Source: Mesorhizobium sp. WSM3626
GTDB lineage: Bacteria; Pseudomonadota; Alphaproteobacteria; Rhizobiales; Rhizobiaceae
Reading direction: 5' to 3'
NCBI RefSeq assembly: GCF_000513935.1
Contig: NZ_AZUY01000009.1
Location: 104,045 to 168,044, forward strand
Length of the DNA: 64,000 nt
Under the pieces are notes generated by a model. It ran no database searches. It worked only from the letters and a program-made list of their open reading frames with translations, and was not told where the DNA came from. Shown piece after piece: positions 17,146-54,211 of this stretch. Numbering within the stretch: position 1 is the stretch's first letter; every line of letters begins with the position of its first letter. A program made the translations under genes and the position numbers.

Positions 17146-17949
17146 TCAGCCATCCAGCCCGGCGATGACATCGACAAGCACCGCCAGCAGGTCCCCGCTG
17201 CCGGCGGCGAGCGCGCCGTGACGGATCACCTCGCCGGCATAGAGCGGCGCCCGGCCATTCGGGTCGAGCAGCTGGCCGCCCGCTTCGCGCAGGATGAGAT
17301 CGGCGGCGGCGATGTCCCAATCATGCGCGTTCGGCTTGACGAACGTTGCGTCGAGCGTCCCGTTGGCGATCATCGCCAGGCGGTAGGCGAGCGAGGGGAT
17401 GTAGGGTGCCCGCTGCAGCCGCTTCTGCCAGCCGGCAGGCACCATGTCGATCAACTGCTTCAACCCTGAAATTTCAGCCTTGTCCTCAGGCTTGCGTACC
17501 GCGATGCGCTTGTCGTTGCGGAAGGCGCCCTGGCCGGGTAGCGCCCAGTAGGTCTCATCCATGGCCGGACATTCGAGCACGCCGGCGAGCGTGCGGCCAA
17601 GCTCAACGACGGCAACGCTGACGCACCATGTGGGCAGGCCTTCGAGGAAGCCGCGCGTGCCGTCGATCGGGTCGACAACGAAGGTGCGGCGCGCCGAAAG
17701 CCGTGCCGGATCGTCGGTCGTCTCTTCCGACAGCCAGCCATAATCCGGCCGTGCCGCAAGCAGCGTCTGGCGCAGGTACGCATCGGCGGCATGATCGGCT
17801 TCGCTGACCGGCGAGGTACCACCCTTCATCCAGACCTGCGGATTGTTGCCGAAGTAGCGCATGGCGATAAGACCGGCCTCGCGGGCGGCGTCGCGCAGCA
17901 GCGGCAGATCCTGATCGGCAGCGGCAGTGGTCAGGTCATGCTCCGGCAA
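17146..17949 (-). CDS. Inositol monophosphatase-family protein, CysQ-like 3'(2'),5'-bisphosphate nucleotidase
   Basis: Product of 267 aa with the Mg2+/Li+-dependent phosphatase motifs. These are WLSEET (metal-binding Glu), DPIDGTRGF (the DPxDGTxxF signature) and HDWDIAAADLI (the WDxAAxxxI motif). The family hydrolyses PAP or PAPS in sulfur assimilation, or inositol phosphates; CysQ is the closest match by motif style. The reading frame most likely starts at TTG 17949, preceded by GAAGG and overlapping the pmbA stop by 14 nt. This implies translational coupling within the envelope operon. Confidence 0.88.
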   Translation of the reverse strand: MPEHDLTTAAADQDLPLLRDAAREAGLIAMRYFGNNPQVWMKGGTSPVSEADHAADAYLRQTLLAARPDYGWLSEETTDDPARLSARRTFVVDPIDGTRGFLEGLPTWCVSVAVVELGRTLAGVLECPAMDETYWALPGQGAFRNDKRIAVRKPEDKAEISGLKQLIDMVPAGWQKRLQRAPYIPSLAYRLAMIANGTLDATFVKPNAHDWDIAAADLILREAGGQLLDPNGRAPLYAGEVIRHGALAAGSGDLLAVLVDVIAGLDG

Positions 17950-19279
17950 GGGTCATGCCTTCGATCAGGAGCGTCGGGGCGGCAGTACCGAAATTCCGGT
18001 CGAGGTCATTCGCCGGCACCATGTTGAGGAACATCGTCTTCAGGTTCGAGGCGATGGTGACTTCGGCGACCGGATAGGCAAGCGCGCCATTTTCGATCCA
18101 GAAGCCGGAGGCGCCGCGGCTGTATTCGCCGGTGAGCATGTCGACACCCTGGCCAAACACTTCGGTGACGTAGAAGCCGGTCTTGAGCGAGCCGATCAGG
18201 TCTTCCGGCGAGCGCTCACCCGCCTCGATGGCAAGGTTCGTCGACGACGGCGAGACGGAGGAACCGCCGCGTGCGCCGCGACCGTTGGTGACGAGGCCGA
18301 GCTCCCGGGCCGCCGACGTCGACAGGAACCAGTGGTTGAGGACACCCTTTTCAATCATCAGGAGCTTCTCGCCCTCGACGCCTTCGCCATCGAATGGGCG
18401 CGAGGCCTGGCCACGGCGCCGCAGCGGGTCATCGGTGACGGTGATGGCGGCAGCGGCCACCTGCTTGCCCATCATGTCGCGCAGGAACGAGGTCTTGCGG
18501 GCGACGGAAGCGCCGTTGATGGCGCCGGCGATATGGCCGGCAATGCCGCGCGCGACGCGCGGGTCGAACACCACGTCGACCGGTCCGGTCGCCGCCTTGC
18601 GCGCGCCAAGGCGGCGCACCGCCCGTTCACCGGCCTTGCGGCCGATGTCCTCGGGTGAGTCGAGATCGGCAAAATGCTGGCGCGAGGAGAATTCATAGTC
18701 GCGCTCCATGCCGGTGCCCTCGCCGGCGATCACGCTGGCCGAGCGCGCAAAGCGCGAGCCGACATAGTGGCCGAGAAAACCGTGCGAGGTGGCCAGAACC
18801 AGCCCGCCAAGCCCGGCGCTGGCATTGCTGCCGGACGAATTGGTCACGCCCTTGACGGCGAGAGCCGCCGCTTCGGCCGCAAGCGCGGCTTCCTTCAACT
18901 GGTCGGCCGATACTTCGGTCGCGTCGAACAGGTCCAGATCGCGCGTCTGCCCGGCGAGCAGCGCAGGGTCGGCAAGACCCTGGTAGGGATCCTCGGGAGA
19001 CACCTTGGCCATGGCGACGGCACGCTCGGCAAGCGCCTTCGGATCGGACGCGGCGGTCGCCGATACGCTGGCCACACGCTGGCCGACGAAGACCCGCAGC
19101 GAAACATCGTCGCCCTCGGAAGCCTCGGTGTTTTCGACCTTGCCAAGCCGCACCGAGACGCCGGTCGAGCGGCCACGCACCGCGACGGCGTCCGCGGCAT
19201 CGGCGCCGGCGCGTTTGGCGGCCTCGACTAGGGCCGCGACGCGGTCCGTCAATTTCGCCGCGTCCAGCTTGTCGGTCAT
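17936..19279 (-). CDS. pmbA: TldD/PmbA family metalloprotease-like protein
   Basis: Product of 447 aa of the TldE/PmbA family. This is the partner subunit of the TldD/TldE peptidase that degrades unfolded peptides and matures some ribosomal peptides. Visible features are DDVSLRVFVGQR near residue 80, the central SSGSNASAG/GLVLATSHGF region, and the C-terminal MLTGEYSRGASGFWIENG. The HExxxH metal motif belongs to TldD, so its absence here is expected. No tldD is nearby. It is the first gene of the pmbA-cysQ pair, upstream of the LPS genes. Confidence 0.93.
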   Translation of the reverse strand: MTDKLDAAKLTDRVAALVEAAKRAGADAADAVAVRGRSTGVSVRLGKVENTEASEGDDVSLRVFVGQRVASVSATAASDPKALAERAVAMAKVSPEDPYQGLADPALLAGQTRDLDLFDATEVSADQLKEAALAAEAAALAVKGVTNSSGSNASAGLGGLVLATSHGFLGHYVGSRFARSASVIAGEGTGMERDYEFSSRQHFADLDSPEDIGRKAGERAVRRLGARKAATGPVDVVFDPRVARGIAGHIAGAINGASVARKTSFLRDMMGKQVAAAAITVTDDPLRRRGQASRPFDGEGVEGEKLLMIEKGVLNHWFLSTSAARELGLVTNGRGARGGSSVSPSSTNLAIEAGERSPEDLIGSLKTGFYVTEVFGQGVDMLTGEYSRGASGFWIENGALAYPVAEVTIASNLKTMFLNMVPANDLDRNFGTAAPTLLIEGMTLAGA

Positions 19280-19453
19280 GCACTTGATCCTGTTTCTTCA
19301 GCCTGTCCGGAAGGCAGTTGCTGCCGCACCATCTATTGTTCCAATGCCGCTTGTGCAATGGCAGAAGGGCAATCAGGATGTCGCGACCAAACCGGCATCG
19401 AAGCGCCCGCAAAGAGCGGACGTCGCGGTTTTTGCCTATCTGGAGCCTTCGCC

Positions 19454-19864
19454 ATGACGCCTTTCCATCTTGCCTTTCCGGTTCGTGATCTCGATGAAAC
19501 CCGAACTTTCTATGGCGAGGTGCTGGGCTGCGCGATCGGCCGCTCGTCGGCGACCTGGGTCGATTTCGACCTTTACGGCCACCAGATGTCGGCGCATCTG
19601 CGCCCCGCGCAAGCCGCCAGTGACGGCAAGGTCGACGGTATCACCGTACCGATCCCGCATTTTGGCGCTGTGCTCTTGATGGACGACTGGCAGCGCCTTG
19701 CCACTCGGCTGGAAGCGCGCGACGACATAGACTGGCTGGAGCGGCCAATGGTGCGTTTCAAGGGCGAGCCCGGCGAACAGGCGACATTGTTTATCCGCGA
19801 CCCCTCGGGCAACGCCCTGGAATTCAAGGGCTTTCGCTCGATCGAGCAGGTTTTCGCGCATTGA
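19454..19864 (+). CDS. VOC (glyoxalase/bleomycin resistance) superfamily protein
   Basis: Product of 136 aa from ATG 19454, chosen because it opens at the first conserved strand ([24 protein letters not shown]). The last strand ends [15 protein letters not shown], and Glu there is the usual metal ligand position. The fold is two beta-alpha-beta-beta-beta modules. Substrate unknown; the family covers glyoxalases, dioxygenases and drug-binding proteins. It is convergent with epmA and divergent from pmbA. Confidence 0.88.
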
Positions 19865-19889
19865 AGTCAGAGGGGCAGCAGCCTGTCGT

Positions 19890-20936
19890 TCAAGATGCCG
19901 CGACCGGCGTCCAGATCACGTCCTCGATCTTGTGCGCGCCGGTCGCCAGCATCACCAGGCGGTCGAAGCCGAGCGCGACGCCGCTGGCCTGCGGCATGAT
20001 GGCAAGGGCGGCGAGAAAATCCTCGTCCAGCGGGTAGCGCTCACCATAGACGCGCTCTTTCTCGTCCATCTCGATGATGAAGCGCCGGCGCTGCTCGGCT
20101 GCGTCGGTCAACTCGCCAAAGCCGTTGGCGAGCTCGACGCCGCAGCAATAGAGCTCGAAACGTTCGGCGACGCGTGGATCTCCGGGGCCCGGCCGGGCGA
20201 GTGCCGCCTCGGCGACCGGATATTCGCACAGGATGGTCGCCCGCCCCTGCCCGAGAAGCGGCTCGATCTTTTCCACCATCACGCGGCTGAACAAATCCGC
20301 CCAGCTGTCGTCGGGCGCGGTGCGCAAGCCGGCCTGGATCAGTGCGGCATGAAGCGCGTCCCGGTCCGTGCCGCCATCGACGGCGACCGTGGCCAGCAGA
20401 TCGATGCCGGCATGGCGGCTGAAGGCATCCGCCACGGTCAACCGCTCCGGTTCGGCAAACGGATCGCAGTCGCGGCCCCGGAAAGAAAAGCGCGCGGCTC
20501 CTGCCCTCGTCGCGGCCAACGCCAGCAGCGCTGCGCAATCGCGCATCAGGCTCTCATAGGTCTCGCCCACCCGGTACCATTCGAGCATGGTGAATTCGGA
20601 ATGATGCAAGGGGCCGCGCTCACGATTGCGGTAGACCGGACCCAGGCTGAAAATGCGCTGTTCGCCCGCGGCGAGCAGCTTCTTGCAGGCGAATTCCGGC
20701 GAGGTGTGGAGATAAAGCGGCGAGCGGATGCCATCCGATCCGACCGCTTCCGTGGCGAAAGCCGCCAGATGCGCCTCGTTGCCGGGCGAGACCTGCAGCG
20801 CGGCTGTCTCCACCTCGATGAAGTCGTTGCGGGCGAACCAGTCGCGCAAGGCAGCCGTCAGCCCGTTGCGCAGCATCAGGCGCGGACGGCGGTCGGCATG
20901 GACATGCGGCGTCCACCAGGGCGACGCGGCGGTCAT
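19890..20936 (-). CDS. epmA: Elongation factor P--(R)-beta-lysine ligase
   Basis: EpmA is a truncated class II lysyl-tRNA synthetase that lacks the tRNA anticodon-binding domain and attaches (R)-beta-lysine to EF-P. Product of 348 aa, the expected size. Motif 2 is seen as [20 protein letters not shown] followed by TMLEWYRVG, and motif 3 as [12 protein letters not shown]. It is divergent from efp, its substrate gene, 198 nt away. No epmB (lysine 2,3-aminomutase) is seen in the window. Confidence 0.96.
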
Positions 20937-20960
20937 GAGCGGATTGAAGGCATGCAGGTG

Positions 20961-21034
20961 CGCCCCATGTCAGTTCGCCCCATGTCGGTTCGCCCCAGGC
21001 CAGTTCGCCCCAGGCCAGTTCGCCCAGGCCAGTT
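20961..21034. repeat. 15-bp tandem repeat, five copies, between epmA and efp
   Basis: Consensus CGCCCCAKGYCAGTT. Copies start at 20961, 20976, 20991 and 21006, with a fifth, 14-nt copy at 21021 (one C lost). The first two have ATGT where the later ones have AGGC, so the array probably grew by slippage. It lies in the divergent epmA/efp promoter region. The 15-nt period is a multiple of three, so it is open in several frames, but no gene is supported. Confidence 0.9.
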
Positions 21035-21134
21035 CGCATTGAGGGGCTGGCGGTTCGCGCCAAGATGCGCTAGGCCCCCATCCAGCGCCGCACAAGCCGG
21101 CAAACGCCAGTCAACTCTCGCAGGATTTAAAACC

Positions 21135-21704
21135 GTGGTGAAAGTCATCGCCAGTTCGCTCCGCAAAGGCAATGTCGTCGACAAGGACGGCAAGCTTTAT
21201 GTGATCCTCTTTGCCGAAAACATCCACCCAGGCAAGGGCACGCCCGTGACGCAGCTCGACATGCGGCGTATCGGCGACGGGGTGAAGGTGTCGGAGCGCT
21301 ACCGGACCACCGAACAGGTGGAGCGCGCCTATGTCGAGGAGCGCGAGCACACCTTCCTCTACGCCGACGGCGAAGGCTATCACTTCATGAATCCGGAAAC
21401 CTACGACCAGGTGGCGGTGTCGGAAGCCGTGGTCGGTGACGCGGCACCTTATCTGAAGGAAGGCATGCCGGTGCAGGTGTCACAGTTCAACGGCATCGCG
21501 ATCTCCCTGGTGCTACCGCAGCGCGCCACCTTCGAAGTGGTCGAGACCGAGCCGACGACCAAGGGCCAGACGGCATCGTCCTCCTACAAGCCGGCCGTGC
21601 TCTCCAACGGCGTGCGCACCACCGTGCCGCCCCACATCGCGCCCGGCACCCGCGTGGTGGTGATGACGGCCGATGGGTCCTATGTGGAGCGAGCGAAGGA
21701 CTGA
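21135..21704 (+). CDS. efp: Elongation factor P
   Basis: EF-P relieves ribosome stalling at polyproline stretches. Product of 189 aa. The N-terminal KOW domain has HPGKGTP with Lys34, the residue modified by EpmA. Two OB domains follow, and [36 protein letters not shown] split below 20 residues are the family signature near the third domain. A GTG start at 21135 gives the normal length. Coding-looking sequence in frame upstream is antisense to epmA and not translated. Confidence 0.97.
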
Positions 21705-22085
21705 GGGGGACCGGCCCTTCCAGTCCAAGAGGCTTACCAACAAAGCTCTTCTGCAAATAGGCGGACGACTTCTCGCGCCAGTTGGATAGACGGGCGCCGA
21801 AGCCTTGGCATGCGCTGACCGCTGTGCCGCGTTTCGATTGGAATAGTCGGCGTGTACTAAGTTCACAGCACACGAAGCGGTAATTCCTCACGTTCGCAGA
21901 GCTGATCCAGGATGAGCAACAGACTGACCTCATGGACGCGATGTAGGAGCAAGCTCTTTGTGAATCTGATGGTACGGCAGCAACGCCTCCGGATCGAATA
22001 ATTTGATCGACGAAATTACAAATCGTCTAACGAAGTAATCCCGACTTCGATTCACCCTATTCCTTCCCTTCAGTTGACTCCTTCG

Positions 22086-22102
22086 ACAATTGGCTGAATT
22101 GT
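22086..22102. promoter_or_regulatory. Inverted repeat in the restriction-modification promoter region
   Basis: ACAATT-GGCTG-AATTGT is a perfect 6-bp inverted repeat with a 5-nt spacer, 48 nt before the ATG at 22150. A TATCAT at 22103-22108 just downstream is a possible -10 element with a weak TTCGAC at 22082-22087. The repeat would overlap the promoter spacer, as expected of an operator. The binding protein is unknown. Confidence 0.45.
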
Positions 22103-22110
22103 TATCATTC

Positions 22111-22128
22111 CCGCCTAAATAAAGGCGG
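22111..22128 (+). promoter_or_regulatory. Leader hairpin before the restriction-modification gene
   Basis: CCGCCT-AAATAA-AGGCGG forms a perfect 6-bp stem with a 6-nt loop. It ends 21 nt before the ATG, just before the ribosome-binding site GAGGGGAG, and is not followed by a U run, so a translational or DNA-operator role is likelier than termination. Confidence 0.45.
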
Positions 22129-22149
22129 TGGGTAGAGGGGAGTTGCGTC

Positions 22150-25100
22150 ATGAGTTCGGGTGTTGGTGCGCTCGCGCCAATGATGACGCCTGTTGCGTTC
22201 ATCAAGAAGTGGAAAAAAGTCTCGCTGACTGAGCGCCAGACAGCCCAGGAACACTTCATCGATCTTTGTGCACTCCTCGGTCATCCAACGCCAACCGAGG
22301 AAGACCCCAAGGGTCAGTTTTTTGCTTTCGAGAAGGGCGCGAACAAAGTGGCGGGTGGGCGCGGCTTCGCCGACGTTTGGAAAAAAGGCCACTTTGCCTG
22401 GGAGTACAAGCGTAAGAACGGCAATCTCGACGACGCCCTCCTGCAACTTGTCCGCTACGCACCGGCTCTACAAAGTCCACCGCTGCAGGTGGTTTGCGAC
22501 ATCGAGCGTTTCCGTATCCACACGGCATGGACGAATACGGTCCCGGTAACCTACGAGATCACGCTTGACGACCTGGCCGAGCCAGCCCCACGCGAAATTC
22601 TGCACAATGTCTTCTATGACCCCGAAAAACTGAAGCCGACCAAAACGCGTGCCGCCGTGACCGCAGAGGCGGCGGATAAGTTCTCGACGATCGCGTTACG
22701 CTTGCAAGGGCGAGGCACAGCCGACGAGATCGCCCATTTCGTCAATCAGCTCGTGTTTTGCTTCTTCGCCCAAAGTGTGAGGTTGCTACCGGATGCGTTG
22801 TTTGCGAAATTATTGAGGCGCTCTTCCCAAAACCCGGAGAGGGCAAGCGGTTACCTCGGCAAGCTCTTCGAAGCGATGGAACGTGGTGGCGAATTCGACC
22901 TCACCGAAATTGCTTGGTTCAACGGTGGTCTTTTCGACGGCCGTCGCGCACTGCCGCTCGATGAAGGTGATATCGGGCTGCTGATAGCAGCCGATAGTCT
23001 TGACTGGAGCTTGATCGACCCGACCATTTTCGGAACGCTGTTCGAACGCTTTCTTGACCCGGACAAGAGAGCACAGATCGGTGCGCACTACACTGACACC
23101 GACAAGATCATGAAGCTCGTAGATCCCGTTATTCTAAGACCGCTTCGTGCAGAATGGGAGGCCGCCAAACAGCAGATCGCAGCGCTCTTAAATGGCGAAC
23201 TTGGCCCACCAATGCGCAAGAAGCCGCATCGGCGCATGACTCGAGAGGAAGCGGCGCAGGAAATTCGCTCCCAATTCCTGGAACGCCTGCGCAACTTGCG
23301 CATTCTCGATCCGGCATGCGGATCGGGAAATTTTCTTTATCTTGCCCTGCAGGGTGTCAAGGACATCGAAAACAGAGCCAATCTCGAATGCGAAATTCTG
23401 GGCCTTAGTCCGCAACTGCCGCTCGTCGGCCCGGAAATCCTTCGTGGAATCGAGATCAACACACCAGCGGCTGAGCTTGCTCGCACTACAATTTGGATAG
23501 GCGATATCCAGTGGCAATTGCGAAACGGCATCCGGTCGAAATCAATTCCGATCCTGCGCAAGCTTAAAGCAATCGAAAAGGGCGATGCGCTCGTCAAACC
23601 TGTGTCGTCTCCTCTCCATGATCAGAAAGACGCGCCGGAGAATAGCAACCTGCAAAGCGCGGCAACCGGCTCAAAATTCATCGAGACTGATTGGCCTGAG
23701 GCAGAATTCGTCGTCGGAAACCCTCCATTCCTCGGCATACGGCTAATGCGCCACGGTTTGGGAGACGAAACCGTGGATCGTCTGTTCGATGTTTATGATG
23801 GCCGCGTTTCGCGAGAAGCCGACCTCGTCTGTTATTGGTTTGAAAAAGCCCGCGCCGCCTTGAAATCCGGCCATTCACAACGAGTCGGGCTTGTCGCTAC
23901 AAATTCAATTCGTGGAGGTGCCAACCGAAAGGTCCTTGATAAGATCGCTGCAGAGAACCGTATTTTTGAAGCCTGGAGCGATGAACCTTGGATTGTCGAC
24001 GGTGCGGATGTTCGGGTCTCACTTATATGCTTCGGTCATGGTGAGGATACATTACGGCTCGATGGCAATGATGTCGCGGAAATCAATTCGGACCTTACGG
24101 CCGGAACAACGAACCTTACCCGTGCGCACAGACTCACGGAAAATCTCAGCGTTGCATTTATGGGAGATACAAAGGGCGGCGCTTTCGACATCCCAGGTAG
24201 GCTTGCGCGGGAGTGGTTGCAGCTTCCTCTGAATCCCAATGGCAAGCCAAATTCAGATGTGCTGCGCCCGTGGCGAAATGGAATGGATATGACGCGCCGT
24301 TCGAGAGACATGTGGATTATCGATTTCGGTTGGGAAATGTCTCAGCAGACGGCCTCGTTGTACGAGGGTCCGTTCGAACACATAAAGGAACACGTCCTGC
24401 CCGAGCGGGCCCAAAATAGGCGCGATGCATATCGCGACCGATGGTGGCGCCATGTTGAGCCGCGACCCGGCATGTGGCGGGCGCTGGAGGGACGAAACCG
24501 CGTTATCGTTACGCCCGAAGTTTCGCGGCATCGTGTCTTTACATGGCTATCAACGCTGATCGTTCCGGATCACAAGTTGCAGGTAATTGCACGTGACGAC
24601 GACACAACTTTCGGGATTTTGCTTTCCAATTGGCATCTAGTTTGGTCGCTGGGTGTGGGTTCGTGGCATGGTGTGGGCAATGATCCTCGCTATACGATAA
24701 GCTCCTGTTTCGAAACTTTCCCATTTCCAGAAGGCCTAACGCCAAACGTTCCCGCCAAGCGCTACGAGAACGACCCCAGAGCTGTGGCTATCGCTCAGGC
24801 GGCAACGCGGCTCGATGACCTCCGCAATGCATGGCTTAACCCAACCGATCTCGTTCGTATCGAGCCGGAAGTTGTTGCCGGCTATCCGGACCGCATTCTG
24901 CCCAGAGACGTGAGCGCGGAGGCGATCCTGCGCGAGCGGACTTTGACCAATCTATACAACCGGCGCCCGCAATGGCTTGTTGATGCGCATCGCGAACTCG
25001 ACGCAGCTGTTGCTACCGCCTATGGCTGGCCAACAGATATCTCGGAGGAAGACGCCTTAGCAAAGCTGCTTGAACTTAACTTTACTCGTGCCGCAGCTGT

Positions 25101-25284
25101 ACAGCGGACAAAAAAGACTCGGCGCAAGACGCCGGAGGAATTGCGTGCCCAGCCGCAATTGCTGTTGCCAATTCCCGGCAAGAAACGAAAGCAAGAGGAG
25201 CTTGCTCTGGACGAGCTTGAAAACGCACAGGAACGAGGGGCGGCTGTGACGGGACGCCCCAGCAGGAGACATCGAACCGCTTAA
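22150..25284 (+). CDS. MmeI-like (type IIL) restriction-modification enzyme
   Basis: Product of 1044 aa that appears to hold cleavage, methylation and DNA recognition in one chain. The N-terminal nuclease has Asp75-x9-Glu85-Tyr-Lys87 within GRGFADVWKKGHFAWEYK, the same spacing as the MmeI D-x9-ExK site. A helical linker follows. The N6-adenine methyltransferase has LDPACGSGNFLY (motif I, Asp387) and NPPF at 524-527 (motif IV). The C-terminal ~450 residues carry the target recognition domain, with a Lys-rich tail. It looks intact. Base composition is lower in GC than the neighbours and codon use is less biased, which suggests horizontal acquisition. The recognition sequence cannot be predicted. 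Confidence 0.92.
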   Translation: MSSGVGALAPMMTPVAFIKKWKKVSLTERQTAQEHFIDLCALLGHPTPTEEDPKGQFFAFEKGANKVAGGRGFADVWKKGHFAWEYKRKNGNLDDALLQLVRYAPALQSPPLQVVCDIERFRIHTAWTNTVPVTYEITLDDLAEPAPREILHNVFYDPEKLKPTKTRAAVTAEAADKFSTIALRLQGRGTADEIAHFVNQLVFCFFAQSVRLLPDALFAKLLRRSSQNPERASGYLGKLFEAMERGGEFDLTEIAWFNGGLFDGRRALPLDEGDIGLLIAADSLDWSLIDPTIFGTLFERFLDPDKRAQIGAHYTDTDKIMKLVDPVILRPLRAEWEAAKQQIAALLNGELGPPMRKKPHRRMTREEAAQEIRSQFLERLRNLRILDPACGSGNFLYLALQGVKDIENRANLECEILGLSPQLPLVGPEILRGIEINTPAAELARTTIWIGDIQWQLRNGIRSKSIPILRKLKAIEKGDALVKPVSSPLHDQKDAPENSNLQSAATGSKFIETDWPEAEFVVGNPPFLGIRLMRHGLGDETVDRLFDVYDGRVSREADLVCYWFEKARAALKSGHSQRVGLVATNSIRGGANRKVLDKIAAENRIFEAWSDEPWIVDGADVRVSLICFGHGEDTLRLDGNDVAEINSDLTAGTTNLTRAHRLTENLSVAFMGDTKGGAFDIPGRLAREWLQLPLNPNGKPNSDVLRPWRNGMDMTRRSRDMWIIDFGWEMSQQTASLYEGPFEHIKEHVLPERAQNRRDAYRDRWWRHVEPRPGMWRALEGRNRVIVTPEVSRHRVFTWLSTLIVPDHKLQVIARDDDTTFGILLSNWHLVWSLGVGSWHGVGNDPRYTISSCFETFPFPEGLTPNVPAKRYENDPRAVAIAQAATRLDDLRNAWLNPTDLVRIEPEVVAGYPDRILPRDVSAEAILRERTLTNLYNRRPQWLVDAHRELDAAVATAYGWPTDISEEDALAKLLELNFTRAAAVQRTKKTRRKTPEELRAQPQLLLPIPGKKRKQEELALDELENAQERGAAVTGRPSRRHRTA

Positions 25285-25356
25285 CACCGATGTTGAGCGC
25301 TTAGTCCAGATCGCAGAAAACCTTCCCCGCCATGTTGGCTATCGACGCGGCGAGCT

Positions 25357-26220
25357 TCACCCAGTCACCCGCTTCCCGCGTTTGTCCTTCCCGCCCCGCG
25401 CCTCCATCACACTCGCCACCTCCCGCTTCAGCCGATCCTTGATTTCAACGGTCTCCTTCATCAAGGCATCGATCTTCAGGAAATCGAGCACCCGGTATTT
25501 GGACACCGCCGGGCGGACCAGTATATCGGGCTGGCATTGGTTCAGCTTGTTGGCGATGATCGACTGCATCATCAGCTGCGTGGCGCCGAACATCAGGTCG
25601 ACGGAGGTCGGCTGTTTGCGGTCGGCCTCTTCCGGCGCGCCGACCACGTCGACGCCGATGATGATGTCGGCATCCTTCTCGATCAGATCGAAGGGCACGG
25701 GGTTGTAGATGCCGCCGTCGATCAGCAGTCTGCCGTCACGCATCACCGGGCGGAAGACGGCGGGGATGGCGGCCGAGGCGGCAAGGGCCGAGTGCAGGTC
25801 GCCATCGTCGAACACGGCGAGCTTATGGCCGAAATAGTCCGTCGCTGTCACCTTCAGCGGGATTTTCAATTCGGCGAAGGTTTCGGGAATGGCTTCGGGC
25901 AAAAAGGCCTTGAGGATGCGCTCGACATTGAACTGGCTGACCCGGATGCCATTTTGCATGGCTTCCGCGATCGTGCCTGGCCGTGCCCGCCACATGCGGC
26001 TCGCCACCTGGGCGCGCCGGCCGAGGATCGAGCGGGCATAGTCGTGCATGTCCTTGCCGGTCATGCCCGAGGCCATGCCGGCGCCCATGACGGCGCCGAT
26101 CGAGGAGCCGGCTATCGCCACCGGCTTGATGCCGAGTTCGTTTAGCGCCTCGATGACATGGATATGCGCCAGGCCGCGCGCGCCGCCGCCGCCGAAAGCT
26201 ATGCCGAAAGTCGGGCTCAT
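25357..26220 (-). CDS. Patatin-like phospholipase (RssA-like)
   Basis: Product of 287 aa. It has the oxyanion-hole motif GGGGARG at the N-terminus, the nucleophile elbow GSSIG and the catalytic Asp in DGGIYNP, so the Ser-Asp dyad is complete. Members hydrolyse acyl esters of phospholipids; rssA-type proteins in bacteria have poorly known roles. Its ATG overlaps the stop of the upstream M16 gene by 4 nt, so it is the third gene of a peptidase-peptidase-patatin operon. The C-terminus is Lys/Arg-rich. Confidence 0.92.
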   Translation of the reverse strand: MSPTFGIAFGGGGARGLAHIHVIEALNELGIKPVAIAGSSIGAVMGAGMASGMTGKDMHDYARSILGRRAQVASRMWRARPGTIAEAMQNGIRVSQFNVERILKAFLPEAIPETFAELKIPLKVTATDYFGHKLAVFDDGDLHSALAASAAIPAVFRPVMRDGRLLIDGGIYNPVPFDLIEKDADIIIGVDVVGAPEEADRKQPTSVDLMFGATQLMMQSIIANKLNQCQPDILVRPAVSKYRVLDFLKIDALMKETVEIKDRLKREVASVMEARGGKDKRGKRVTG

Positions 26221-27617
26221 CCCTTGCCGGCTCCCGCCAGCGGCGGTCCGACCACCATGATGGTCGGCTCGGCGGTCAGCAGCTTCTTCGCCGCCGCCTT
26301 GACCTGATCGAGCGTCACCGCGTTGATATAGCCGGTACGGCGCTGCATGTAGTCGATGCCGAGATCGTCGAGCTGCAACTCGACCAGCGTCGCGGCGATG
26401 GCACTCGACGAATCCAGATTGCTGATGGCATAGGCGCCGATCAGATATTTCTTGGTCGCCGCCAGTTCGGCCTCCGTCGGGCCGTCCTGCGCCAACCGCT
26501 TGACGACGTCGCGTACGATGCCGAGCGTCTCGGCGGCGCGGTCGGAACGCGTTCCGGTGGTGACGATCAGCGCGTCGGCGTGGTCCTGGTTTACCAGCGA
26601 GGAATTGACGCTGTAGGCCAGCCCGCGCTTTTCGCGCACCTCCTGGAACAGGCGCGAGGTAAAAGTGCCGCCGCCAAGGATTTCATTCATCAGCGCGGCC
26701 GGGAAGAAATCCGCCGACTTGCGCTTCACGCCTGGCCAGGCGAGCTGCAGCGAGGTCTGCGGCAGGTCGTAGTTGACCTCGATATGCTGCGCCAGCCTGG
26801 GCTCGATATCGGCGACAGGGGCGATCGCCTGGTTTGGCGGCAGATCGCCAAACACCATGTCGAGCTTCTTCTTCAGCGTCTCGGCATCGATGGCGCCGAC
26901 CACGGCGACATGCAGGCCGCCGCGCGCGAACACCGCCTTGTGCAGGGCCTCAAGGTCGGCCTGCGTGATGGCGGCGATGCTCTGCCTGGTGCCCTGATCG
27001 GAGCGCGAATAGGGGTGGTCGCCATAGACGGCGCGCGCCCATCGATTCTGCGCCACCGTGTCCGGGTCGTTCTCGTTGGCGATGATGCCGGACAGGACCT
27101 GGGCGCGGATGCGATCGATCGGCGCCTGGTCGAAGCGCGGCTCATTGACCGCCAGCCGCAACAGGTCGAAGGCTTCGTCGCGCTGTTCGGCCAGCATGCG
27201 CATGGAGCCGTAGATGCCGTCGCGGGTCGCGTCAAAGCTCATTTCGGCGCCGGCGTCGAGCTTGATCTGGAAGGCTTCCGAATCGAGCGGGCCGGCGCCC
27301 TCATCGAACAGGCCGGTCATCAGATTGGCCAGGCCTTCCTTCCCCACCGGATCCTGCGTCGAGCCGCCGCCGAAGACGAAACGGACGGCGACAACCGGCA
27401 CGGAATAGTCCTCCACCAGCCAGGCCGTGACGCCCTTCGGCGAGGTGACGGACTGGATGTCCATGGCGTGGGCGGCAAGCGCCGGCAGGATTAGGAAGAG
27501 GATGGAGAGGAATAGGGTTGCGATGGCATGCAGGGCCTTCCCTTCTCCCCTCGCAAGGGGAGAAGGGGGAGCCTCGCGGGGAGAAGTCAACGCGCCGCTA
27601 AACTCGTTCATCATCAT
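26217..27617 (-). CDS. M16-family peptidase, non-catalytic type subunit
   Basis: Product of 466 aa. The position where M16 enzymes carry HxxEH reads LMTGLFDEGAG, so the zinc site is missing. The C-terminal half keeps RLFQEVREKRGLAYSV, the Arg/Tyr motif of the partner subunit in two-subunit M16 peptidases. It is exported: LFLSILFLILPALAAHAMD is a signal peptide at residues ~33-52. The N-terminal 30 residues before it include SPLARGEGK, encoded by a palindromic repeat. The start (ATGATGATG at 27617) overlaps the upstream M16 stop by 1 nt. It probably pairs with the catalytic subunit in the periplasm. Confidence 0.9.
   Translation of the reverse strand: MMMNEFSGALTSPREAPPSPLARGEGKALHAIATLFLSILFLILPALAAHAMDIQSVTSPKGVTAWLVEDYSVPVVAVRFVFGGGSTQDPVGKEGLANLMTGLFDEGAGPLDSEAFQIKLDAGAEMSFDATRDGIYGSMRMLAEQRDEAFDLLRLAVNEPRFDQAPIDRIRAQVLSGIIANENDPDTVAQNRWARAVYGDHPYSRSDQGTRQSIAAITQADLEALHKAVFARGGLHVAVVGAIDAETLKKKLDMVFGDLPPNQAIAPVADIEPRLAQHIEVNYDLPQTSLQLAWPGVKRKSADFFPAALMNEILGGGTFTSRLFQEVREKRGLAYSVNSSLVNQDHADALIVTTGTRSDRAAETLGIVRDVVKRLAQDGPTEAELAATKKYLIGAYAISNLDSSSAIAATLVELQLDDLGIDYMQRRTGYINAVTLDQVKAAAKKLLTAEPTIMVVGPPLAGAGKG
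27541..27566. repeat. Palindromic repeat inside the N-terminal coding region of the M16 subunit
   Basis: CCTTCTCCCCT-CGCA-AGGGGAGAAGG is a perfect 11-bp stem with a 4-nt loop. Similar CTTCTCCCC...GGGGAGAAG palindromes are abundant between rhizobial genes. Here it falls within codons ahead of the signal peptide and is read as PSPLARGEGK. A second partial arm, GCGGGGAGAAG, follows at 27576-27586. Confidence 0.75.
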
Positions 27618-29005
27618 CAATTCCCCGCCTGTTGCTGCGGCAAGAGATAACCGGTGGTCGAGCGGGCCAGCACCAGATAGCGCGCGGCAACGGCCTTGAC
27701 CTCGTCGGTGGTGACCTTGCGGATGCGGTCCGGCCATTGCTGCACGTCCTGGACATTGCCGCCGGTGGCGAGTGTCGAACCATAGATATTGGCCATGGAG
27801 TCCTGCTTGTCGCGGGCAAAGATCATTGACCTGACATAGCGGTCCTTGGCTTTTTCGAGCTCATCCGGGGTCACGCCGTCGCTGGCGATGCGCGCCACCT
27901 CGGCATCGACCGCGGCTTCGACGTCGGCCAGCTTGGCGTCGCCGCGCGGCGCGCCGTAGACGGTGAAATTGGTGTCGTCGAGCATGGTGCCCTGGAAATA
28001 CGCGCCGGCGCTGGAAGCGATGCCCTGCTTGATGACGAGCGCCTGGTAAAGCCGGCTGCGGTTTCCGCCGCCAAGGATCTCGGCAAGCAGATCGAGCGCT
28101 TCGGCCTCGCCAGGCTTGGCGGTGTGATAGGAGGGCACGACCCATTGCGTCGAGAAACTCGGCACGCTGACGCGGGCGTCGGAGAGCGTCACGGTGCGCC
28201 TGGTGTTCTGCTCCGGTTCGACCGGGCGGACGCGCGGCGGCAAGTCCGGTCCGCGGGCAACCTTGCCATAGGTCTTTTCGGCCAGCGCCTTCACCGTTTC
28301 CGGTTGGACGTCGCCGGCCACGATCAGCACGACGTTGTTGGGCCGGTAATATTTGTTGTAGAAGGCGACGGCGTCGGTGCGGTTCAGCTGTTCCATCTCC
28401 TGCATCCAGCCAATAACCGGAATGCGATAGGGCTGGTTCTGCCACAGTGTGGCGTCGACCTCCTCGTCGAGCACGGCCTGCGGATTGTTGTCGATGCGCG
28501 AGCGGCGCTCCTCCAGGATCACATCGCGCTCGGTCTTGATGACGTCGTCGGTGAGGATGAGGTTGCGCATGCGGTCAGCCTCGAAGCTCATCATCAGTTC
28601 GAGATCCGACGGCGCCACCGTCTCGTGGAAAGCGGTGTAGTCGTAGGAGGTGAAGGCGTTGTTGGAGCCGCCAATGTCGGAGACGGCGCGGTCGAACTCG
28701 CCGGCTTCGTGATGGGCCGTCGCCTTGAACATCAGATGCTCGAAGAAATGGGCGATGCCGGATTTGCCCGGTGGCTCGTCGGCGCTGCCGATCTTGTACC
28801 AGACCATATGGGTGACGATCGGCGCGCGATGGTCGGGAATGACGACCACTTCCATGCCGTTGTCGAGCAGGAAGTCCGTGACCTTGAACTCGGCCGGCAC
28901 AGTGTCTGGCAATACGGCGTTGTCCGCCAGGACAGGGTCGGTCATGAACAAAGCCAGCGACGTCGCCAGCAGCGTTGGCCTCAGCCACTCAGTCCTGGAT
29001 GTCAT
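27617..29005 (-). CDS. M16-family zinc peptidase, catalytic subunit
   Basis: Product of 462 aa. The start at 29005 was chosen for GGAG about 7 nt upstream; it is followed by a signal peptide ([20 protein letters not shown]). The inverted zinc motif HFFEH is present in [11 protein letters not shown], with the distal Glu region expected about 75 residues later. M16 enzymes degrade peptides in the periplasm or at the outer membrane. Together with the downstream subunit it forms a pair of catalytic and R/Y-motif proteins, as in bacterial heterodimeric M16B peptidases. Confidence 0.94.
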
Positions 29006-29123
29006 CGATGGCTCCGGTTTCATGCAGCGACGATAGGCAAGGCGCAGGCGACAAGCAAAGTGATTTGTTGGTCATGTTGACGGCAAAGGCGGCGGCAAAG
29101 AGGCCACTGCTGAAAGAGGCCTG

Positions 29124-29678
29124 TCAGGCAGCTTCGATGAAGCGGATGACGGTCTCGCCGTAGTTGCGCTCATCAAGCACGGAAAAGCCCGGGCCTGGCT
29201 CGAAGGGAACCGACGCCGTCTCCTCGATCACGCAGAGCGCCCCGGGGCGCAGCCAGCCGCCGGCCATGGCCGACCGCAGAGCGCGCTCGCCAAGGCCCTT
29301 GCCATAGGGCGGATCGGCAAAGACGAGACCGAACGGCGCCAGCGTGCCCGCCTCGCCAAGGCCCGTTGCATCGCGTCGGAAGATCTTGGTGCGTCCGGTC
29401 AGGCCGAAGGCCTCGACGTTGTCGCGGATCAGGCCACGGCCCTCCGCCGATTCCTCGATGAACACGCCATAGGATGCACCGCGCGACAGGGCCTCCAGAC
29501 CAAGCGCGCCGGTGCCGGCGAACAGGTCGAGCACGCGCGCGCGCTCCAGTTGCCCGGTAAAGCGATGCGCCAGAACGTTGAAGACGGCCTCGCGGGTGCG
29601 GTCGGTCGTCGGGCGGATGGCGCCGCTGCGGGGCGTCGCCAACGGACGCCCGCGAAACTCACCGCCGACGATTCTCAT
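29124..29678 (-). CDS. rsmD: 16S rRNA (guanine966-N2)-methyltransferase
   Basis: Product of 184 aa. It has the Rossmann SAM motif DLFAGTGALGLEALSRGA and the catalytic DPPYGKG (usual N/D-PPY). RGRPLATP near the N-terminus is typical of RsmD, which methylates G966 of 16S rRNA in the assembled small subunit. The start overlaps the stop of the pseudouridine synthase gene by 4 nt, so the two rRNA-modification genes are coupled. Confidence 0.95.
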   Translation of the reverse strand: MRIVGGEFRGRPLATPRSGAIRPTTDRTREAVFNVLAHRFTGQLERARVLDLFAGTGALGLEALSRGASYGVFIEESAEGRGLIRDNVEAFGLTGRTKIFRRDATGLGEAGTLAPFGLVFADPPYGKGLGERALRSAMAGGWLRPGALCVIEETASVPFEPGPGFSVLDERNYGETVIRFIEAA

Positions 29679-31624
29679 CTTGTCCGGGGGCCCTTGGGGC
29701 CACGCGGCCGCTCACCGCCACCTCCTGGACGCTCGCCACGCGGCTTGCCGAATGGCTTTGCGTCGCCTGGTTTACCAGCGGGCTTGCCATAAGACGGCTT
29801 GAACGAGGCCTTGCGCGCCTTGGCCTCGGCCGCCTTGGCCGCATCGGCCTCCGCCCTGCCCTTGCCGATCGGCCGGGCTCCCGGTGCCATCCAGACATTG
29901 GCCTTGCGCTGGCCTGGCGGCTCGATCGGCCGCTGCTCGCGTTCGGATTTCTTGCCGCCGCCACGAGGCTTGTCACCGAAACCGCCGCGCGGCTTGTCGC
30001 CGAAGCCGCCACGCTCCGGTCGCGGACCGCGTTCGCCGAAGCTCTTTTCTGGCCTCTCGCCCCTATCAGGACTTGTCGACAGTTTGCCGAGCGCCTCGTC
30101 GCGGCTGCCTTCCCGGCGTTTGCGGTTCTTGATCAGCCCGCCCTCGCCGATCGGCCGCCGCTCGCCGTCTCTCGTAAATTTCGGCCGTTCGGGCTCGGCC
30201 TCACGGACTTCGGTACGCCGCACCGGCTGGTTGGAAAACGGTTTTGTTATCTCGGCGTCGAAATTGGCACCGGATTCCTCGACCAGGCGCTCGCCAAGCT
30301 GGTCGCGCAGCACCCGGCCCTTGATTTCCAGCACGTGGCCCTCGGCGAGATCCTCGAGCTGGAACGGGCCGTAGGAGATGCGGATCAGCCGCGTGACGTC
30401 GAGGCCGAGCGCGCCGAGGATGTTCTTGACCTCACGGTTCTTGCCCTCGCGCAGGCCGATCGTCAGCCAGGCATTGGAGCCCTGCTCCCGATCAAGGCTG
30501 GCTTCGATGGCGCCGTAGAAGACGCCGTCGACGGCAATGCCTTCGCGCAGGCCGGCAAGCGCGCTTTCCTCGACCTTGCCGTGGACGCGCACGCGGTAGC
30601 GGCGCAGCCAGCCGGTGGCCGGCAGTTCCAGTACGCGCGACAGGCCGCCATCATTGGTCAGCAGCAGCAGGCCTTCGGTGTTGATATCGAGCCGGCCGAT
30701 GGTCATCAGCCGCGGCAGTTCGGCCGGCAGCACGTCGAAGACGGTCTTGCGGCCTTCGGGGTCGCGGTTGGTGGTGACGACGCCGGCCGGCTTGTGGAAC
30801 AGGAACAGGCGCGTGCGTTCGATCGGCGGGATTTCCATTCCGTCGAGATGGATGATGTCGTTGGGCATGACGTTGAACGCCGGCGAGGCCAGCACCCGAC
30901 CATTGACCTTGACGCGGCCGGCGGCGATCAACTCCTCGGCGTCGCGGCGCGAGGCGAGCCCGGCACGTGCCAGACGCTTGGCGATGCGCTCGCCGGCTTC
31001 TTCCGTTGCTTCGGTTGTTCGCGGACGTGGCTTGAAGCCGCCGCCCGATGCGCCCTGTGGCCGGTCTCCGAAATCACGTTTGGGTCTGTCGCCTCCAAAG
31101 TCTCGCTTTGGACGGTCGGCAAAATCCCGCTTCGGACGATCTGCGAAATCACGCTTGGGACGGTCGAAGCGCTTTTCGCCGCCCTCCGCCGAAGCAGAAA
31201 ACGGACGGTCGCCACGTGGCGCGTAAGGCTTGCGCGGCCCTTCGCGCTTCTCATAAAGCTTGCGTTCGCCCTCGGCCGCCATCGGGCGGTCGCCACGTGG
31301 CGCGTAGGGCTTGCGCGGCCCTTCGCGCTTCTCATAAGGCTTGCGTTCGCCTTCCGCCGCCATCGGGCGGTCGCCACGCGGGGCGTAGGGCTTGCCTTCG
31401 GGGCGCGGTCCCTTGCGGAACGGCTTGTCGCCGCTCTTGAAGTCGCGCTTCGGGCGCTCGCCTTCAGCGGCGGCCGGCCGGTCGCCGCGTGGGGCATAGG
31501 GCTTTTTCGCACCAAAGGACGGCTTCCCGCCCTTGCTGGCGCCGCGGCCACGTGCACCTGCCGATTTCGGGCCACTCCTGCCCGGGCCGCCTTTGCGCGG
31601 AGATTTCTTGTCGTTGTCGTCCAT
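29675..31624 (-). CDS. Pseudouridine synthase (RsuA/RluB family) with long basic, repeat-rich tails
   Basis: Product of 649 aa, more than twice the usual size. Only the middle is the enzyme: an S4 RNA-binding domain (ERIAKRLARAGLASRRDAEE), then the RsuA/RluB core with the catalytic Asp in GRLDINTEGLLLLTNDGG. The first ~200 residues are Lys/Arg/Gly/Pro-rich, with four copies of KPYAPRGDRP and several RPKRDFADR units. The last ~190 residues are of similar composition, with GGFGDKPR twice. These tails are probably disordered and bind RNA. The start at 31624 follows AAAGG. It probably modifies 23S or 16S rRNA; which position is not clear. Coupled to rsmD. Confidence 0.92.
   Translation of the reverse strand: MDDNDKKSPRKGGPGRSGPKSAGARGRGASKGGKPSFGAKKPYAPRGDRPAAAEGERPKRDFKSGDKPFRKGPRPEGKPYAPRGDRPMAAEGERKPYEKREGPRKPYAPRGDRPMAAEGERKLYEKREGPRKPYAPRGDRPFSASAEGGEKRFDRPKRDFADRPKRDFADRPKRDFGGDRPKRDFGDRPQGASGGGFKPRPRTTEATEEAGERIAKRLARAGLASRRDAEELIAAGRVKVNGRVLASPAFNVMPNDIIHLDGMEIPPIERTRLFLFHKPAGVVTTNRDPEGRKTVFDVLPAELPRLMTIGRLDINTEGLLLLTNDGGLSRVLELPATGWLRRYRVRVHGKVEESALAGLREGIAVDGVFYGAIEASLDREQGSNAWLTIGLREGKNREVKNILGALGLDVTRLIRISYGPFQLEDLAEGHVLEIKGRVLRDQLGERLVEESGANFDAEITKPFSNQPVRRTEVREAEPERPKFTRDGERRPIGEGGLIKNRKRREGSRDEALGKLSTSPDRGERPEKSFGERGPRPERGGFGDKPRGGFGDKPRGGGKKSEREQRPIEPPGQRKANVWMAPGARPIGKGRAEADAAKAAEAKARKASFKPSYGKPAGKPGDAKPFGKPRGERPGGGGERPRGPKGPRTR
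31206..31394. repeat. 81-bp tandem repeat within the pseudouridine synthase gene
   Basis: CGGTCGCCACGTGGCGCGTA recurs at 31206 and 31287, with a diverged copy at 31368, giving an exact 81-bp (27-codon) period. The first two full units differ at only a few positions. The encoded unit is KPYAPRGDRPMAAEGER followed by KPYEKREGPR. Being in frame, changes in copy number would leave the enzyme core intact. Confidence 0.85.
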
Positions 31625-31646
31625 GTGGCCTTTGTCCGTTTGCGCT

Positions 31647-31751
31647 GCTACAGCGTGGCGCATCCGTTCGGCGCGCAACGAACGCTGTAGCATTTTTGAT
31701 TTGGCGCATGATCATTCCCGAAAATCGAGTCCGATTTTCAGGTTGATGCGC
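31647..31751. repeat. Rhizobial-type composite palindromic element (RIME-like)
   Basis: Two nested palindromes. GCTACAGCGT (31647-31656) pairs with ACGCTGTAGC (31682-31691). Then GCGCAT (31704-31709) pairs with ATGCGC (31746-31751), enclosing CGAAAATCG/CGATTTTCA (31719-31740). The layout and core words match the mosaic intergenic repeats common in Rhizobiales. It lies directly upstream of the pseudouridine synthase start, in its leader or promoter region. Confidence 0.75.
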
Positions 31752-33149: not shown

Positions 33150-33273
33150 CGCACTTCTTTGATCTGATGCCGGTCGTTTAAACCGCCACGCACTTTCGGG
33201 CGACAGGAACTGGCTTGATCTGGTCCCTGTCGTTTGTCCCAAAACCGCTACGCACTTTTGGGCGACAGGAACT
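33150..33273. repeat. Tandem repeat with 62-bp period downstream of ileS
   Basis: CCGCCACGCACTTTCGGGCG and the same word with two C/T changes begin 29-nt units at 33183-33211 and 33245-33273. Each is preceded by a similar TTTGATCTG...GTCGTTT stretch, so a longer unit of about 62 bp is duplicated. The second unit ends at the ileS stop codon. A related copy lies upstream of ileS at 36324-36350. The rest of the gap 32969-33271 shows no gene and carries the lipoprotein promoter region. Confidence 0.85.
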
Positions 33274-53816: not shown

Positions 53817-53954
53817 GGGCCCGGGGTGAATACGATCGATTGCGCCGTCCAACTTCCCGTCACTTTCAAACTGGCGACGGAAGGATGTTGGTCGACCGGC
53901 CGACAAGACCGATGTCCACGTTTCCTCCCGGCACACCCCGTCCGGTCAACTCGG

Positions 53955-54135
53955 TGATGGCAGGTCTCCTGGCTCACGGGTCTGTGCGCAATCCTGCCTT
54001 CCCAGCCTTGCCGGCCAGTGGCGTTCCGGATCTTGCTCGCCGCTTACAGTTGCGGGGGCAGCCGCGGCCTCGACCCAAAATCGGATCTCCCGCGTTCCCT
54101 TTTCACCCCTCGCCTTTCGGCTCGGGGACCATCAC
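53955..54135 (-). promoter_or_regulatory. Cobalamin riboswitch
   Basis: Read on the minus strand, the conserved elements appear in order: GGGAACGCGGGA (54099-54088), CCCCCGCAACTGTAAGCGGC (~54058-54039), GCCACTGGC...GGGAAGG (54022-53997) and the B12 box AGCCAGGAGACCTGCC (53974-53959). This is the adenosylcobalamin aptamer. It lies 140-320 nt upstream of DUF1636, so B12 is expected to switch off the whole DUF1636-ATPase-binding protein-permease operon. The expression platform was not resolved; no U-tract terminator is seen, so translational control is likely. Confidence 0.93.
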
Positions 54136-54211
54136 GAGTCGCAGCCTAGGCCGCGCGCGGTGGCGAGGCAAGGCAGTTTGTTTGTTTTGTTATAACAGAA
54201 CCAACAAATGG

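Follow-up and report, generated by a model that had tools for sequence, protein, structure and literature searches.

The stretch analysed here (hereafter the window) comprises 64,000 nucleotides of Mesorhizobium sp. WSM3626, positions 104,045 to 168,044 of contig NZ_AZUY01000009.1. Between efp, encoding elongation factor P (EF-P), and a patatin-like phospholipase gene it carries a gene at 22150-25284 (+), designated WIN in the alignments, trees and codon tests below, which opens with ATG and runs for 1044 codons with no internal stop. An earlier note, made from the sequence, had described an intact 1044-amino-acid (aa) MmeI-like restriction-modification (R-M) enzyme flanked by housekeeping genes; the frame is indeed uninterrupted and both flanks were confirmed by Pfam. 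Taken together, the data presented below indicate that the gene is very probably a complete MmeI-like (type IIL) one-protein R-M system, acquired as a small unit into the variable efp-patatin junction.

The gene is distinct from its surroundings in base composition. GC content was 0.54-0.56 in the three 1-kb bins spanning 22001-25000, compared with 0.58-0.68 in the window's other bins. Moreover, GC at third codon positions (GC3) was 0.589, against a mean of 0.798 (standard deviation 0.050, z = -4.2) for 48 further open reading frames (ORFs), selected mechanically across the window with a minimum length of 150 aa. The lowest GC3 within this comparison set (0.610) belonged to an ORF antisense to an M16 protease gene, which is probably spurious. 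The difference in GC content and codon choice that had been claimed is therefore borne out, codon choice being measured as GC3 only. The 'AT-rich island' is real in that GC is lowered; its extent is one gene and about 450 bp upstream.

The motifs reported for the protein are all present: D75-x9-E85-Y-K87, LDPACGSGNFLY at residues 386-397 and NPPF at 524-527. The triad D75, E85 and K87 is identical in 78/78 aligned family rows longer than 850 residues (83 rows were aligned, five shorter ones being left uncounted) and aligns with D70, E80 and K82 of MmeI, whose alanine mutants lose cleavage according to sections of PMC4833311. The PADLOC model REase_MTase_IIG PDLC03627 matched residues 12-985 with 1029 bits. 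MmeI (5hr4) was the sole match in a single-sequence search of PDB sequences at E≤0.01 (3e-36), and it was far ahead (1.1e-81) of the next entry (4.1e-6) when a 32-row profile was used; this profile retained 32 of the 35 sequences first offered, with L044, L099 and L112 omitted and L066 shortened. The AlphaFold2 model of the window protein (pLDDT 83.8) was aligned to MmeI 5hr4 by VIA-align with a Z of 32.8 and a root mean square deviation of 4.1 over 693 residues, spanning model residues 166-983. The structural runners-up were CamA (Z 23.7) and M.TaqI (Z 17). By sequence and model, the domain order is that of MmeI: nuclease, helical spacer, gamma-class adenine methyltransferase, two-part target recognition domain (TRD-N and TRD-C) and C-terminal helices. 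Most of the 80 homologues collected (see below) stop near residue 980, before the tail of the window enzyme.

Several features that characterise a type IIL enzyme were found on one chain: an N-terminal PD-(D/E)XK nuclease with D-x9-E-x-K, a spacer and gamma-class adenine methyltransferase (DPACGSGNFL, NPPF), and after it an MmeI-type TRD, as indicated by the fold match through residue 983 and by covarying contact columns. The gene also stands alone, with no other recognisable gene in the insert and 10 neighbouring ORFs scanned. Several points weigh against this assignment. Identity to MmeI is low (21-24%), the Pfam match to MmeI_TRD (26.3 bits) is just short of the cut-off of 27, and MmeI_C scores 19.2 bits against the same cut-off where the model places helices (932-990). 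The assignment of the nuclease domain rests on sequence, because the VIA-align match covers only model residues 166-983. Nevertheless, sequence, profile and predicted structure together support the claim that this is an MmeI-like single-chain type IIG/IIL R-M enzyme. It is ordinary in kind, a further MmeI-like enzyme. The suggestion that specificity is set by a C-terminal domain holds, by comparison with MmeI, for the TRD (about residues 636-862) and not for the terminal helices or tail.

Two other readings of the protein were weighed. One is that it does not act alone but supplies the methyltransferase of a defence system with several genes (DISARM DrmMI, BREX PglX or an OspHL35III-like split). 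The PADLOC DrmMI model does match residues 521-879 with 239 bits, split MmeI-like systems exist (described in part of PMC4752239) and in genomes G129 and G098 the homologue has a tail-to-tail neighbour, an HNH_2 protein of about 300 aa. In addition, the patatin weakly matched a CBASS-type phospholipase effector (34.5 bits) and a PF03602 protein at 29127-29678 weakly matched mad2 (56.5 bits), both in PADLOC. However, the type IIG model matches over nearly the full length with the 1029 bits given above, the three nuclease residues are all present and do not vary within the family, patatin is present in 61/61 genus genomes with or without the R-M gene, and no HNH remnant was found in the insert. 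A scan of the 10 neighbouring ORFs (17149-31693) at E≤1e-5 gave no match to DISARM or BREX models, and the ORFs belong to ordinary Pfam families; no drmA, drmB or drmC and no brx or pgl neighbours were found among them, and the best PglX score of the protein itself was 19.9 bits. We consider a multi-gene system barely credible. The other reading is a relic without activity, or an orphan methyltransferase whose nuclease is dead. It draws on decayed relatives: a break near residue 420 disrupts the G098 copy, and the match is spread over two ORFs in L047 (which is G098's copy), L068 and L070. In the window copy, by contrast, the frame is uninterrupted and all motifs and the D/E/K residues are intact, which makes this reading very improbable.

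Features of the window gene and its surroundings. Positions are those of the window; residues are those of the 1044-aa protein.
Feature	Position	Strand	Basis
efp (EF-P), left flank	21141..21704	+	Pfam
Insert relative to nearly empty efp-patatin junction	21706..25356	.	Comparison with three short junctions; left limit within a few bases
Upstream stretch sharing DNA with homologous loci of two relatives, possibly promoter region	22034..22149	+	
Type IIG/IIL restriction-modification gene	22150..25284	+	1044 aa; PADLOC and MmeI matches
N-terminal nuclease domain (MmeI_N, residues 12-178)	22183..22683	+	Pfam 50.9 bits, cut-off 27
PD-(D/E)XK catalytic residues D75-x9-E85-Y-K87	22372..22410	+	Invariant in 78/78 rows; aligned with MmeI stretch
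Helical spacer (MmeI_hel, residues 193-262)	22726..22935	+	Pfam 41.7 bits, cut-off 27
N6-adenine methyltransferase domain (MmeI_Mtase, 373-614) with LDPACGSGNFLY 386-397 and NPPF 524-527	23266..23991	+	Pfam 99.2 bits, cut-off 27
TRD-N, about residues 636-782	24055..24495	+	Limits from alignment with MmeI; within structure match 166-983
Segment of conflicting ancestry against L184 and L034, residues 718-853, limits approximate	24301..24708	+	
TRD-C, about residues 783-862	24496..24735	+	Profile alignment to MmeI, column lists, covariation
C-terminal helical region (MmeI_C, residues 929-977)	24934..25080	+	Pfam 19.2 bits, below cut-off 27; structure match reaches 983
Basic tail, residues 991-1044, low confidence	25120..25281	+	pLDDT <50
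Patatin-like phospholipase, right flank	25357..26220	-	Pfam; in 61/61 genus genomes searched

The single-chain enzyme occupies an insert that three relatives lack. Similarity to three short junctions ends 1-6 bp past the efp stop codon and restarts at 25416-25421, inside the 3′ end of patatin, so that the insert is about 3.65 kb here compared with about 0.13 kb in the short-junction relatives. In a survey of 61 genus genomes, patatin was recovered from all 61; efp passed the search threshold in 56. Both were on one retrieved locus in 12 genomes, with distances, taken between the ends of the protein matches, of 114, 127 and 143 bp (G022, G062 and G010, respectively), 840-912 bp (G035, G084, G070, G080, G031) and 1.7-4.0 kb (G021, G014, G012, G074). 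In 25 more genomes efp and patatin are on one contig, 1.7-70 kb apart by coordinate subtraction; in G016 the distance is 1.8 Mb. The remaining genomes have the two genes on separate contigs, or efp without a match. Gaps above about 19 kb, found mainly in the more distant members (efp identity 88-91%), could be due to altered gene order and not to insertion.

Junction contents varied in the 19 genomes inspected (20 stretches), three of them being scanned or compared in more detail, with an HNH_2 protein in the interval of G030, G033, G014, G073 and G001 and a DDE transposase in G021. The possibility that the junction is a defence island was set aside on account of this variety, and we read it as a tolerant, variable site between convergent genes. 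At the insert no mobility gene, integrase, tRNA or att-like or flanking repeat was seen; the window's only tRNA is at 47344, and the short repeats found in the window do not bracket the insert. Upstream, two minus-strand ORFs (21490-21933 and 21933-22259) had no Pfam match at E≤0.01, and a promoter scan returned 2 sites against 1.8 expected, both within the gene on the minus strand.

At E≤1e-80, homologues were found in 15 of 146 genus genomes, 11 of which (its own included) carry copies 51-100% identical and the other four copies 34-37% identical. Among the 11 are the broken G098 copy and one, in G113, whose match starts at residue 47. Locations were checked in five genomes (G129, G098, G009, G063 and G074; G101, G093, G113, G091 and G090 were left out), and in all five the homologue is located elsewhere than between efp and patatin. 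DNA similarity to G129 and G098 (80%) runs from 22034-22049 through 25259-25264; that is, it starts about 100-115 bp ahead of the start codon and ends just before the stop. From this we infer a mobile unit made up of promoter region and gene. More widely, the best 80 of 260 relatives were taken as the homologue set, which comprises 65 sequences from Pseudomonadota, 5 from Actinomycetota, 5 from Acidobacteriota, 4 from Chloroflexota and 1 from Cyanobacteriota. None of efp, epmA, patatin and the next M16 protease was found beside these 80 loci at E≤1e-20 (flanks up to 6 kb), nor in the 16-kb loci of G129 and G098. Matches to the window protein occurred in 401 of 72,556 plasmid records, 70 of them over at least 80% of the query, the best being from Bradyrhizobium elkanii (74.5%). 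Only 8 of 50,697 phage records matched, none over 80% of the query and no close homologue among them.

The acquisition proposed in the earlier note is therefore supported by the near-empty junction in three relatives, the patchy distribution, the homologues elsewhere and the composition. The comparison of sister strains that it had suggested revealed a nearly empty junction (114-143 bp) in those three relatives and unrelated cargo in others, and the gene is not present with matching composition in all relatives. The word 'recently' stands only in the sense that close relatives are without the gene.

Other observations were made at these loci and in the same genome. The HNH_2 protein (about 300 aa) is encoded at L218:5454-6353 and L219:10341-11246, and also in L200, L199, L213, L210 and L216. 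It adjoins the R-M homologue tail to tail in G129 and G098, the HNH proteins beside the L047/G098 gene being identical; in the efp-patatin interval of the five genomes named above it is 82-91% identical and occurs without an R-M gene, and in G001 its gene is split over two frames. No trace of an HNH gene was found in the window insert. A second MmeI-like enzyme of 1210 aa is encoded in the same genome (L182:5995-9627, G000:C74), is 36% identical to the window enzyme, matches PDLC03627 with 1464 bits and adjoins a GmrSD_N protein. A 685-aa N6 methyltransferase, similar to models of types I and IIG, is also encoded in that genome (L183:1296-3353, G000:C41), and its C-terminus gives weak matches to type I specificity subunits. 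Within the window, a 40-bp stretch at 33228-33267 has counterparts, 90-93% identical, close to the R-M locus in each of G129 and G098 and is possibly an interspersed repeat. The window's one Rfam match, a cobalamin riboswitch at 53942-54148 (-) scoring 120 bits, is far from the gene.

The recognition domain of the window gene is mosaic with respect to two relatives, L184 (the G129 homologue) and L034 (from Bradyrhizobium macuxiense). L184 is the nearest relative, with an overall identity of 92% in the body and 51% in TRD-C, compared with 80% and 90% for L034. Domain by domain, identity to L184 is 93% in the nuclease, 92% in the spacer, 86% in the methyltransferase, 81% in TRD-N, 54% in TRD-C and 79% in the C-terminus; the corresponding values for L034 are 82, 82, 74, 77, 91 and 63%. 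A scan of 879 informative nucleotide sites revealed that residues 718-853 contain 32 L184-like and 93 L034-like sites, compared with 593 and 161 outside, a score reached by 0/10000 shuffles. In trees of 24 hand-picked rows out of those aligned, the body joined WIN with L184 (support 97) and rejected WIN with L034 (approximately unbiased test, p-AU = 3.8e-85). The TRD-C tree (740-853) joined WIN with L034 (100/99) and rejected WIN with L184 (p-AU = 0.006). These conflicting trees show that TRD-C and body of the window gene and its nearest relative have separate histories.

Codons suggest where the change occurred. At conserved residues, WIN and L184 share 39/81 identical codons (48%) within 718-853, limits that were fixed after the scan, compared with 484/714 (68%) elsewhere (p = 7.5e-4). 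WIN and L034 share 56/116 (48%) within the segment and 256/617 (41%) outside, which is not significantly higher (p = 0.18), whilst L184 and L034 share 36/83 and 251/607, respectively (p = 0.72). L047, the broken copy of Mesorhizobium loti UFLA 01-765, taken as the same copy as G098's, is in this segment 90% identical to the window gene and 60% to L184. The codon results therefore make L184's segment look foreign to the pair; that of the window gene may simply be inherited. L184 is the likelier recipient because codon identity to L034 is not significantly raised and L047 shares the segment with the window gene. On the same two grounds, the idea that the window gene recently received its TRD-C from Bradyrhizobium was set aside. 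Some points count against an exchange here: the tested clades were named after the identities had been seen, the WIN-L184 codon test gives p = 0.086 with limits of 765-845, and the WIN-L034 codon result argues against exchange where a recent transfer into the window gene is meant.

The same pattern is seen elsewhere in the family. The 85-row alignment excludes L180 (same locus as L005) and L182 (the 36% paralogue) and drops L047, L054, L068, L070 and L189 as short and L005 as a duplicate; L113 was also omitted from the covariation and pair counts (84 rows). In these 84 rows, 80 pairs, which are not independent, have bodies at least 80% identical. TRD-C identity was at most 65% in 33 of the pairs, at least 80% in 35 (many of them near-identical Mesorhizobium copies) and between these values in 12. 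Codon identity at conserved residues was lower in TRD-C than elsewhere in 29/33 divergent pairs, reaching p<0.01 in only 4, namely L040-L042 and the three pairs that L090 forms with its Thiospirillum jenense paralogues. In the control class of 35 pairs, 16 were below and 2 reached p<0.01. The four paralogues of T. jenense DSM 216 (L090, L096, L097, L098) have bodies 82-91% identical and TRD-Cs 44-65% identical. Moreover, the recognition loop is of two types, acidic-x-R in 32 rows (the MmeI type) and G-N-D or G-N-Q in 45, and at least 17 changes between them are needed on a FastTree body tree with these 77 rows labelled, a count that has no shuffle control.

Such differences between near-identical enzymes could also arise by fast point mutation under diversifying selection, without exchange. 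This would accord with a codon drop that reaches p<0.01 in only 4/33 divergent pairs and in 2/35 controls too, and with three of the six T. jenense pairs being non-significant even at 0.02. However, codon identity between L090 and its three paralogues is 49-55% in TRD-C compared with 81-85% elsewhere (p≤1.6e-4), in L040-L042 it is 54% compared with 79% (p = 1.2e-4), WIN-L184 shows the drop over 718-853 described above (limits chosen post-scan), and body and TRD-C trees conflict. Point mutation is therefore an unlikely explanation. TRD-C in this branch of the MmeI family is probably a natural specificity cassette, one that moves among genes, strains and paralogues separately from the nuclease and methyltransferase. 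We found no description of natural TRD-C exchange in MmeI-like or type IIL enzymes among the open-access papers listed (15-30 at most per search), the coverage of the literature being incomplete.

Lastly, the contact residues were used to predict the recognition site. Window residues E790, H808, K809, G843, D845 and R847 correspond to MmeI E751, N773, A774, E806, R808 and R810; counterparts of 808-847 come from the profile alignment, and that of 790 from a manual one-residue shift (P789-E790 onto P750-E751). In MmeI, according to sections of PMC4833311, E751 and N773 contact base pair 3, R810 and A774 base pair 4, and E806 and R808 base pair 6, and variants change these to G:C with R/K751 and D773 at 3, bulky 774 (leucine) at 4, and K806 and D808 at 6. 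Corrected mutual information over 17,391 TRD column pairs, with relatedness unmodelled, ranked 790-808 3rd, 843-845 6th, 790-809 10th, 808-809 11th and 809-847 40th. Pairs resembling the published ones are E843/R845 (29 rows), R790/D808 (3), K809/S847 (3) and, loosely, R790/S808 (21); M or V790/N808 (15 rows) and T790/H808 (6) have no counterpart in those sections of PMC4833311. The covariation suggests that the right half of the site would be read by the pairs 790/808, 809/847 and 843/845. With this code, E790/H808 would specify C at position 3, K809/R847 G (or R) at 4, A would be at 5, and D845 would specify G at 6. An attempt to predict bases 1 and 2 gave none, and the site that results, 5′-NNCGAG-3′, is put forward tentatively, as a guess that may well be wrong. 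By the same code L184 (R/S, A/R, D) would read NNGRAG.

By analogy with MmeI, the TRD would read a single asymmetric site, about 6 bp long, the methyltransferase would flip out and methylate the adenine of one strand using S-adenosylmethionine, and the N-terminal PD-ExK domains of paired molecules would cut unmodified sites about 20 bp downstream. Single-strand methylation is described for the MmeI family in part of PMC3874165. The acquired unit would consist of the gene and about 100 bp upstream, perhaps more. TRD-C would have been exchanged through recombination, with the lineage of the relative the likelier recipient, such that specificity changed and nuclease and methyltransferase were kept. 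If so, an exchange would yield a new, self-consistent R-M specificity in one step, because the same TRD serves cutting and marking, and more than one version would coexist in some genomes, as with the four copies of Thiospirillum jenense. Since contact pairs covary across the branch, the right half of sites could also become predictable. Relatives with near-identical bodies and different TRD-Cs would be natural experiments on the recognition code, and could yield new 6-bp cutters and tests of specificity change without host killing.

Among known systems, the closest is MmeI of Methylophilus methylotrophus (PDB 5hr4), a type IIL enzyme recognising TCCRAC (20/18). The two have in common the domain order, the D-x9-E-x-K nuclease, the gamma-class N6-adenine methyltransferase, the two-part TRD and the C-terminal helices. 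However, the window enzyme has 1044 aa compared with 919, at 21-24% identity, and differs in a recognition loop two residues longer, in other contact residues and in a disordered basic tail. NmeAIII, which is called 'highly similar' to MmeI in sections of PMC4833311, has the site GCCGAG (20/18; given in part of PMC3874165); its right half, CGAG, is the one the code suggests for the window enzyme. PDLC03627, a type IIG REase-MTase model, is a near full-length match (12-985) and carries no specificity. DISARM DrmMI aligns with window residues 521-879 (239 bits), and the window protein additionally has a nuclease domain. As regards exchange, in Helicobacter pylori the TRDs of type I and type III systems pass from one gene to another independently of the remaining sequence (sections of PMC3983042). 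The unit moved there is the entire TRD of an S or Mod protein; in the present case, with a single-chain type IIL enzyme, it would be approximately half of one.

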